DNA from: Ruegeria sp. 6PALISEP08
GTDB lineage: Bacteria; Pseudomonadota; Alphaproteobacteria; Rhodobacterales; Rhodobacteraceae
NCBI RefSeq assembly: GCF_001238295.1
Contig: NZ_LGXZ01000010.1
Coordinates: 1 to 64,000 of the forward strand
Length of the DNA: 64,000 nucleotides
Reading direction: 5' to 3'
Below are positions 53,278-56,031 of this stretch, in pieces. The notes below the pieces were generated by a model. That model searched no databases. It had not been told where the DNA came from and saw only the letters and a list, made by a program, of their open reading frames with translations. Positions within the stretch are counted from its first letter, which is position 1; each line of letters starts with the position of its first letter. Position numbers and translations under genes: made by a program.

Positions 53278-53439
53278 CTATGTTACCCTGTAACGTTCAG
53301 CCATTCTCCTAGCTCTTTCGAAAGGAAATGTGAAACATTTCTGTTAACTCTGACACGAACGCGTGAAACCGTTGCAGCAAATCTTGTTGATTGCGTATTC
53401 CACGCGCAAGTGATGGAAAAGCGTTTGGAGGACCGGGAA

Positions 53440-54126
53440 ATGGCTCAACTCAAGAAAATCCTGTTGGTGGATGATGACGAGGATCTGCGCGAGGCGCTCA
53501 GCGAGCAACTTGTCATGACCGAGGATTTCGATGTGTTCGAAGCCTCTGACGGAAGCTCGGCGATGGAACGTGCGCGCGAGGCGATTTATGATCTGGTCAT
53601 TCTGGACGTGGGCCTGCCGGACACCGACGGGCGAGAGCTGTGCCGCCTGATGCGTAAACAAGGCGTAAAAAGCCCTATCCTGATGCTGACCGGTCATGAC
53701 AGCGATGCTGACACAATTCTGGGACTGGATGCAGGCGCGAATGATTATGTCTCGAAACCCTTCAAGTTTCCGGTGCTTTTGGCCCGCATCCGCGCTCAGC
53801 TTCGCCAGCATGAGCAATCGGAAGATGCCGTCTTTGTGCTTGGCCCGTATACGTTCAAACCAGCGATGAAGATGCTGATCACCGAAGAAGATCGCAAAAT
53901 CCGTTTGACCGAGAAGGAAACGAATATTCTCAAATTCCTGTATCGCTCGACCGACGGGGTTGTGGCACGGGATGTGCTCCTGCATGAGGTTTGGGGATAC
54001 AATGCCGGTGTCACCACGCATACGCTGGAAACTCACATCTACCGCCTGCGTCAGAAGATTGAGCCTGATCCATCCAATGCGCGCCTTTTGGTCACAGAAT
54101 CTGGTGGATATCGGCTGGTGTCTTAA
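53440..54126 (+). CDS. cenR: OmpR-family response regulator, CenR-like
   Basis: A 228-residue two-component regulator. The receiver (1-120) has the acidic pocket VDDDED, phospho-acceptor Asp56 in LVILDVGLPDTDG, Thr in MLTGHD and Lys106 in VSKPF. The winged-helix domain (about 130-228) contains LTEKETNILKFLYRS and HEVWGYNAGVTTHTLETHIYRLRQKIEPDP. It closely fits CenR of alphaproteobacteria, an envelope regulator that is essential in Caulobacter and lacks a linked kinase. The ATG at 53440 follows GGAGG at 8 bases; an upstream GTG/ATG is rejected. No histidine kinase gene is adjacent, consistent with an orphan. Confidence 0.85.
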   Translation: MAQLKKILLVDDDEDLREALSEQLVMTEDFDVFEASDGSSAMERAREAIYDLVILDVGLPDTDGRELCRLMRKQGVKSPILMLTGHDSDADTILGLDAGANDYVSKPFKFPVLLARIRAQLRQHEQSEDAVFVLGPYTFKPAMKMLITEEDRKIRLTEKETNILKFLYRSTDGVVARDVLLHEVWGYNAGVTTHTLETHIYRLRQKIEPDPSNARLLVTESGGYRLVS

Positions 54127-54137
54127 CTCGTTGTGGA

Positions 54138-54151
54138 TTGATGTGGATCAA
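54138..54151. promoter_or_regulatory. Perfect FNR-type box TTGAT-N4-ATCAA
   Basis: TTGAT (54138-54142), GTGG, ATCAA (54147-54151): an exact match to the FNR/FnrL consensus. It lies 12 bases after the cenR stop and about 85 bases upstream of a strong terminator, with no protein gene between. Confidence 0.65.
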
Positions 54152-54174
54152 AGTGATACTCTTAAGTCATAATT

Positions 54175-54257
54175 AGGTTACTCCCAACCCGCGCATGTCC
54201 GGGTTATGACATGCACCTCCCTGTTGGACTGCCGGGCCGAATGGCCCGGCTTTTTTT
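54175..54257 (+). ncRNA. Candidate oxygen-responsive small RNA
   Basis: A short segment that could be a transcript of about 75-90 bases. Upstream lie the FNR box and the possible -10 hexamers CATAAT (54168-54173) or GATACT (54155-54160). Inside are a 7-bp stem GCATGTC/GACATGC (54193-54199 with 54208-54214), the single-stranded CACCTCC (54214-54220), identical to the anti-Shine-Dalgarno tail of 16S rRNA, and an intrinsic terminator with seven T. E. coli FnrS is an FNR-driven small RNA with a comparable build. The 5' end is a guess, and the segment could instead be only the 3' end of the cenR mRNA. Confidence 0.4.
54231..54257 (+). terminator. Strong intrinsic terminator downstream of cenR / candidate sRNA
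   Basis: GCCGGGCC (54231-54238) and GGCCCGGC (54243-54250) form a perfect 8-bp stem with loop GAAT, followed by seven T (54251-54257). Confidence 0.93.
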
Positions 54258-54495
54258 GTCAGGGGTGGCGAGTTGAAGTCCGCTTTGAGCCCAATGTTAC
54301 CGATGCTGCGCCTCGAAAGAATGTCTGCAATAGTGATGGGATCATCTGATCCGACAATTCCGGCAGGACACACCATGAAGTTTGTGAACCCGTTTCCCTT
54401 TGTGAAAGACATAGAGAAGTTCGAATGCTTCCAGCCCGCTTTCGCCATATCTGCTAGTTCTTCGATGTCGCATGTCCCGGGATAGGTTTGCCGCG

Positions 54496-54951
54496 ATGAA
54501 GTCGCTCAAAATCCGACAGGCAACTGTTGCCGATGTAGTTCCGCTCAGTGGGCTGATCCGGCGCACAATTCGCGTTTCAAATTCCAAGGACTACGATCAA
54601 AAGTCAATCGATATGCTGTGCGCGATTTTTGAGTCGGAGCCGGTCGCCGGAAGAATTGAAAACGAGCTAATTCTTCTTTGCTTCATGGGCACCGAACTCG
54701 TTGGAACGGTGGGGCTGAGAGATAACTATCTGCGTTCAATGTTCGTGGACCGTGGGTATCAGGGGCGAGGGTTGGGCAAAATGCTGGTTTCAAAAATTGA
54801 AGAGGAGGCGCGACAAAGGGCAATCCCGGAAATGATGCTTCATTCCTCACTGACCGCGCGGGAGTTTTATTTGGCTCTCGGCTATGAATTTGTGGAATTG
54901 CAAACGTACCCGGAAGGACCATTCGTCTTGATGAGAAAGCCGCTCGAATAG
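54496..54951 (+). CDS. GNAT-family acetyltransferase
   Basis: A 151-residue N-acetyltransferase. It shows an N-terminal IRQATVADVVPLSGLI strand-helix, a central SMFVDRGYQGRGLGKMLVSKI with the acetyl-CoA loop GYQGRGLG near residue 95, and the C-terminal AREFYLALGYEFVE motif. The acceptor is unknown. The ATG at 54496 is preferred to one at 54472 because the domain begins there, but the ribosome site is weak in both cases. Its base composition is somewhat more AT-rich than neighbouring core genes, which hints at later arrival; it is monocistronic. Confidence 0.75.
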   Translation: MKSLKIRQATVADVVPLSGLIRRTIRVSNSKDYDQKSIDMLCAIFESEPVAGRIENELILLCFMGTELVGTVGLRDNYLRSMFVDRGYQGRGLGKMLVSKIEEEARQRAIPEMMLHSSLTAREFYLALGYEFVELQTYPEGPFVLMRKPLE

Positions 54952-55242: not shown

Positions 55243-56031
55243 ATGCCCTTTACCCTTGCCACCTGGAACATCAACTCGGTCCGCCTGCGTGAGCCGATCG
55301 TGCTGAAATTGCTGCAGGAAGAGGCACCGGATGTTCTGTGCCTGCAGGAATGCAAATCGCCAGTGGAAAAGATTCCAACCGAGGGGTTTGCCGAACTGGG
55401 CTACACCCACATGGTTGCACGGGGGCAAAAGGGCTATAATGGCGTTGCCATCCTGTCGCGTCTGCCGATGGAAGAAGTCGGTGACAAGGATTTCGCGAAT
55501 CTGGGCCATGCGCGTCACATTGCCGGGCGGTTGGAAAATGGTGTCACGATTCACAACTTTTATGTTCCGGCGGGCGGCGATGTGCCAGACCGCGAAGTGA
55601 ATGAGAAATTTGGCCAGAAGCTGGATTACCTCACCGACATGCGCGATTGGTTCCATGCGGAAAAGCCGGAAAAATCCGTTCTTGTTGGCGATCTGAACAT
55701 CGCCCCGCGCGAGGATGATGTCTGGTCGCATAAACAACTGCTCAAGGTAGTTTCGCACACTCCAATCGAAGTCGAGCACCTAGCCGAGACGCAGGATGCA
55801 GGCGGTTGGGTCGATATCACCCGGCAGGATATTCCCGAAGGCCAACTGTATAGCTGGTGGTCCTATCGCGCGCGCGACTGGGACGCGGCGGATAAGGGGC
55901 GGCGGCTGGATCATGTCTGGGCCACGCCGGATATTTCCAACGCGGGCCATTCCAGCCGTGTTCTGCGGGATGCGCGCGGGTGGGAAAAGCCCAGCGATCA
56001 CGCCCCGGTCTTTGCGACCTTCGACATCTGA
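55243..56031 (+). CDS. xth: Exodeoxyribonuclease III (AP endonuclease)
   Basis: A 262-residue DNA repair nuclease of the ExoIII/EEP family that cleaves at abasic sites and trims 3' ends. Metal and catalytic residues appear in TWNINSVRLR (Asn), VLCLQECK (Glu), GYNGVAILS, LVGDLNIAP (Asp and Asn) and KPSDHAPVFATFDI (Asp-His). Length is typical. A long antisense open frame over this gene is a shadow. The following thioredoxin gene lies 75 bases downstream on the same strand. Confidence 0.93.
   Translation: MPFTLATWNINSVRLREPIVLKLLQEEAPDVLCLQECKSPVEKIPTEGFAELGYTHMVARGQKGYNGVAILSRLPMEEVGDKDFANLGHARHIAGRLENGVTIHNFYVPAGGDVPDREVNEKFGQKLDYLTDMRDWFHAEKPEKSVLVGDLNIAPREDDVWSHKQLLKVVSHTPIEVEHLAETQDAGGWVDITRQDIPEGQLYSWWSYRARDWDAADKGRRLDHVWATPDISNAGHSSRVLRDARGWEKPSDHAPVFATFDI

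Follow-up and report, generated by a model that had tools for sequence, protein, structure and literature searches.

A candidate FnrL-dependent promoter for the stress-defence small RNA SorX in the cenR 3' untranslated region of Ruegeria and related genera

SorX of Rhodobacter sphaeroides and its counterpart in Ruegeria

SorX of R. sphaeroides, formerly named RSs2461 (available text of PMC5036791), is a small RNA (sRNA) published as being cut by RNase E from the 3' untranslated region (3'UTR) of cenR/ompR-1, and its mature form was RNase E-dependent under microaerobic growth. Published work also records Hfq binding and induction by singlet oxygen, and in the source text available SorX is described as RpoHI/RpoHII-dependent, with a role in oxidative-stress defence through potA (spermidine uptake). 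A ChIP-seq survey of FnrL in the same species places sites within the presumed promoters of both RSs0019 and RSs2461, for which a regulatory effect could not be established, according to the accessible part of the paper (PMC4263372). The table of an earlier FnrL ChIP-chip study from 2010, in the text available, has no peak at the place of SorX (PMC2908626). SorY, another sRNA of R. sphaeroides, has been published as having its own promoter. In Escherichia coli the sRNA gene fnrS is under FNR control, and RSs2461 is described as having no sequence similarity to FnrS (both from the accessible part of PMC4263372).

The window analysed here is a 64-kb stretch (64,000 nucleotides) of a Ruegeria genome. 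Scanning it against Rfam gave a sole match above the gathering score, that of SorX (RF02784), at 75.9 bits compared with a gathering score of 46.6 (E 7.8e-17) and over the full model length of 1-73. On this covariance-model evidence, positions 54186-54256 are a copy of the known SorX stress-defence sRNA. The initial annotation had proposed an sRNA candidate at this place; an RNA is indeed there, but it is not new, and the idea of a new sRNA family was dropped given a match so far above the gathering score. The match begins 59 nt beyond the cenR stop, on the 3' side of the ompR-1/cenR gene. The product of that upstream gene carries Response_reg and Trans_reg_C domains, which mark an OmpR-type response regulator, and is 86% identical to the SorX-adjacent protein of genome locus L035, taken as RSP_0847, a protein since renamed CenR (available text of PMC9275681). 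L035 carries SorX at 2598225-2598299, which fits the published end of the 75-nt SorX at 2,598,224, and it was therefore taken as R. sphaeroides 2.4.1. The RNA family, the place after ompR-1/cenR, the loop and the terminator are all shared between the window and R. sphaeroides, where an FnrL ChIP-seq site lies at the SorX promoter.

The elements first described downstream of cenR were all confirmed in the sequence, among them the exact TTGAT-N4-ATCAA palindrome, a hairpin of seven base pairs and a perfect GC stem with seven T (Table 1). The CACCTCC sequence reported there as unpaired is present at 54214-54220, but it overlaps the hairpin by one base, so that the initial C is paired and ACCTCC is the unpaired part. 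The fold of 54186-54257 has a predicted energy of -30.9 kcal/mol (z -3.0). There is no credible protein gene in the 127 bases concerned, in agreement with the initial annotation: the open reading frames of at least 60 aa over the stretch are one of 70 aa (plus strand, ending at 54172) and one of 91 aa (minus strand, 54173-54448), and the latter is without an NCBIfam family match. The proposal of a functional counterpart of FnrS did not hold as a matter of kinship, and membership of that family was dropped, since FnrS did not appear when 53700-54700 was compared with Rfam at thresholds up to E 10, nor among the matches above the gathering score in the window; the resemblance lies in control only. 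Downstream of SorX there are genes for a GNAT-family acetyltransferase (54472-54951) and then for exodeoxyribonuclease III (55243-56031).

Table 1. Coordinates of features at the cenR-SorX locus of the window
Feature	Position	Strand	Basis or remark
cenR (ompR-1) response regulator gene	53440..54126	+	start at ATG 53440 assumed; in-frame GTG at 53410
FNR/FnrL box TTGATGTGGATCAA	54138-54151	+	exact in the sequence; conserved upstream of SorX; centre at -41.5 from the predicted start
Predicted -10 hexamer TAGGTT	54174..54179	+	TA conserved at columns 37-38, counted from the start of the box, in family and genus loci
SorX sRNA	54186..54257	+	RF02784 match 54186-54256; 54186 is also the predicted FnrL-dependent start (from spacing)
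SorX 5' hairpin, 7 pairs	54193-54199 / 54208-54214	+	fold; pair conservation
Near-invariant unpaired ACCTCCCTGTTGGA, anti-SD-like putative pairing region	54215..54228	+	conservation in 144 sequences; whole-RNA RF02784 match
Intrinsic terminator, perfect 8-pair GC stem and seven T	54231-54238 / 54243-54250; T at 54251-54257	+	sequence

Conservation of the RNA and of the FNR box

SorX is widespread in the bacterial family to which the strain belongs, RF02784 exceeding its cut-off in 311 of the 394 family genomes and in all 54 genomes of the genus. For a comparison of loci, 146 family loci were used, taken from the best 150 of more than 150 RF02784 matches, with one per genus by database labels; 17 of them, mostly on long contigs, were chosen by hand. 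Two genomes counted with the genus (G000 and G043) and two rows of G028 were left out. SorX follows cenR in 143 of the 146 family loci and in 54 of 54 genus loci. The three family loci with no cenR match (L318, L342 and L372) were dropped, and the remaining 143 together with the window form an alignment of 144 sequences. At each of the seven paired positions of the 5' hairpin, standard pairing is kept in 138-142 of the 144, with many double changes, and the stretch ACCUCCCUGUUGGA is nearly invariant, partly by selection, since a loose CTCC motif was used to find the loci.

The exact TTGAT-N4-ATCAA palindrome occurs at 16 sites in the 4.46 Mb genome, compared with none for the reversed pattern. 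Between cenR and SorX, exact TTGA-N6-TCAA is present in 47 of the 143 family loci, a frequency that applies to well-scoring SorX loci, and one-mismatch forms are present in 17 more; when all 256 four-base palindromes with an equal gap were counted as a control, the runner-up reached 3 family loci. Within the genus the box is exact in 48 of 54 loci and has one mismatch in the other six. A stricter joint pattern of box plus SorX occurred in 49 of 394 family genomes, compared with none for the reversed control, and in at least 117 stretches of named genomes, the 80 listed among them including Ruegeria, Shimia, Roseovarius, Marivita, Leisingera, Phaeobacter, Tropicibacter and Thalassovita. The joint pattern is also carried by L184, L194 and L215, from records titled Idiomarina and Euryarchaeota, whose assemblies are probably mislabelled or contaminated. 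Across the 47 loci the box keeps a steadier distance from the SorX core (sd 8.4) than from the cenR stop (sd 23.7), so the box travels with SorX. The conservation check next to cenR, suggested at the outset as a possible refutation, thus left the finding standing, with box and hairpins both conserved, but no exact box is present in 96 of the 143 family loci.

Promoter geometry and probable control by FnrL

Alignment of the 47 loci on the box revealed T at column 37 (42/47) and A at column 38 (37/47) as the strongest columns outside the box and its flanking AG. TA stood jointly at these two columns in 36 of the 47, compared with 9 for the next column and at most 8 in the reverse orientation. 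If column 37 is placed at -12, the centre of the box falls at -41.5, the class II position, and class II FNR sites in E. coli are centred at -41.5. For hemA3 of Dinoroseobacter shibae, too, a site is described whose distance upstream from the start is 41.5 bp (available text of PMC5398030). The window has the same geometry, its exact box being centred 41.5 from the presumed start with TA at -12/-11, and class II spacing predicts transcription to begin at 54186, exactly where the SorX match begins; the transcript had initially been expected from about 54165. No sigma-70 consensus promoter was found in 54000-54400.

In 28 of the 47 loci a distance of 30-33 nt separates the predicted start from the CCTCC core downstream of it (30 nt in the window); in 17 the distance is greater, and in two the start would lie within SorX. 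R. sphaeroides differs in that its box, TTGCGTGAGATCAA, has one mismatch and its predicted start lies 29 nt further upstream, whereas in the window the box is exact and the start coincides with the first base of SorX. TATAAA stands at the -10 columns of R. sphaeroides; the start is predicted there at 2,598,196, and the pre-SorX end has been published at 2,598,182, 14 nt away. An attempt to learn the spacing from other exact boxes of the Ruegeria genome was uninformative, TA being found at columns 37-38 in 2 of 28 orientations (14 of the 15 other boxes examined).

SorX might, on another reading, be made solely by processing of the cenR 3'UTR, with the FNR box bound without consequence or left as a relic. 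The RNase E maturation published for R. sphaeroides, which was seen in microaerobic cultures, would fit this, as would the family loci that have no exact box, 26 of which have less than 60 nt from the cenR stop to the core. A relic, however, would not be expected to hold box and -10 element at a fixed spacing across 47 genera, and in the genus TA is kept at columns 37-38 in 50 of 54 genomes, as is a spacing of 78 with A at the start (50/54). Processing as the only source of SorX therefore seems unlikely.

Whether the box would activate or repress had been left undecided in the initial annotation; the conserved spacing of box and TA now favours activation, not repression, the start site itself still being a prediction. 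FnrL bound downstream of cenR could conceivably block read-through or a promoter at low oxygen, and SorX would then be lowered when oxidants are scarce, as might suit an oxidative-stress RNA. FnrL does lower some of its targets in R. sphaeroides, namely coxII-X-XI-III, coxI and fnrL (available text of PMC2908626). Yet the conserved TA stands where a class II promoter has its -10 element, and solely on the side facing SorX; this is what activation needs, and a repressing box is quite improbable.

The Ruegeria genome encodes FnrL (NF045989 equivalog, 460 bits compared with a cut-off of 300; contig C10, 130190-130930). The fnrL gene adjoins an exact FNR box, the far side of which faces a gene that we take to be hemN. 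For R. sphaeroides hemN, a TTGCG box is listed as FnrL-bound and activated (available text of PMC2908626). Co-occurrence of box and FnrL was dropped as a proof of control, with an FnrL-like match present in 364 of 394 family genomes. Eight family genomes lacking a good FnrL match were picked by eye (best E above 1e-60, or no match), and one of them, 84% complete, has the box.

The genome also has other HTH_Crp_2 proteins besides FnrL. In D. shibae the sites used by FnrL resemble those of Dnr proteins, and ompR (Dshi_0212) changes in dnrD/dnrF-depleted strains (available text of PMC5398030). These observations would agree with a box that serves another Crp/Fnr regulator, of Dnr/NnrR type, in place of FnrL. 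It is nevertheless the FnrL ChIP-seq of R. sphaeroides that names the RSs2461 promoter (accessible part of PMC4263372), and the box is found in none of the five FnrL-less genomes that are at least 90% complete, yet in one of the three less complete ones, numbers too few to decide the regulator. Service to a Dnr/NnrR-type protein is accordingly rated very improbable. If Dshi_0212 corresponds to cenR, SorX may also play a part there.

Taken together, it is probable that the SorX gene in the cenR 3'UTR of this Ruegeria-group species has its own FnrL-dependent class II promoter, and that a primary SorX made at low oxygen exists beside the RNase E-cut form; the start site, the activation and the working in this organism are the inferred parts of this proposal. 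Points against it are the 96 family loci that have no exact box, the rarity of TA beside the other exact boxes of the genome and, in R. sphaeroides, the short distance between predicted start and pre-SorX end, the RNase E-dependence of mature SorX under microaerobic growth, its RpoHI/RpoHII-dependence and the missing peak in the 2010 ChIP-chip table. At low oxygen, dimeric [4Fe-4S] FnrL would bind the box at -41.5 and help RNA polymerase to start at 54186, giving a SorX of 71-72 nt directly. Under stress, RNase E would also cut SorX from the longer cenR transcript, as published for R. sphaeroides, and the primary and processed forms would share one terminator. SorX would then use ACCUCCCUGUUGGA to pair with target mRNAs in their start regions and lower their translation, as with potA in R. 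sphaeroides. The processing, the target and the binding of FnrL are carried over from published R. sphaeroides work, binding being reported for that one species, and the family identity, the conservation, the geometry of box and -10 element and the presence of an FnrL gene were computed here. It is somewhat likely, further, that in many roseobacter-group genera SorX, described as a 3'UTR-derived sRNA, is at the same time a gene in its own right, activated by FnrL, with a primary transcript that begins where the processed form does; the RNA would then be supplied by two routes, one for oxidative stress and one for low oxygen.

A link between a known oxidative-stress sRNA and the oxygen regulator FnrL would in this way extend over many genera; the literature, in the texts available, offers a single ChIP-seq site from a single species and no result on expression. 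A conserved FNR promoter for SorX is nowhere described in the available passages of the literature searched (SorX, RSs2461, FnrL/sRNA and D. shibae, with subscription journals mostly outside it). The word SorX was not found in the accessible text of papers on sRNAs of Ruegeria pomeroyi and Paracoccus denitrificans; the available part of the latter paper mentions two sRNAs that have both context and sequence in common with an sRNA of R. sphaeroides. The proposal provides an exact and testable start site for SorX, and a 3'UTR sRNA that seemingly has its own promoter is relevant to the gain or loss of independence by such sRNAs. If both routes supply SorX, cells would hold an oxidant-defence RNA ahead of the return of oxygen.

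Pairing region, target search and related RNAs

Action of SorX at ribosome sites through its anti-SD-like loop would follow from the published potA case together with the conservation of the loop. A search of the genome for the complement of the loop returned 33 sites with at most two mismatches, compared with 15 for the reversed pattern, and two of the 33 are SorX and a SorY-like RNA themselves. A potA start was recognised at none of the 28 loop-complementary sites examined (three others lay outside the set, and potA itself was not located). The best match to a ribosome site, L392 (contig C4, 210281-210294, minus strand), is complementary to the SorX loop at 13 of 14 bases and overlaps what is probably the ribosome site of a gene whose product has a metallo-beta-lactamase-type domain (PF13483). 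Its fixed pattern with the following ATG is kept in just 6 of 54 genus genomes, and for this reason no SorX target is claimed.

The ACCUCCCUGUUGGA stretch and the terminator are also shared with SorY (RF02651), but the window RNA scores 25.7 bits with that model compared with a gathering score of 111. The SorY-like RNA mentioned above, at 1485-1565 of L002 (contig C4, about 107053-107133), carries an identical ACCTCCCTGTTGGA and scores below both cut-offs (SorY, 56.3 compared with 111 bits; SorX, 44.5 compared with 46.6). Weaker SorX-like matches were observed elsewhere in the genome at L003 (33.1 bits) and L004 (28.8 bits).
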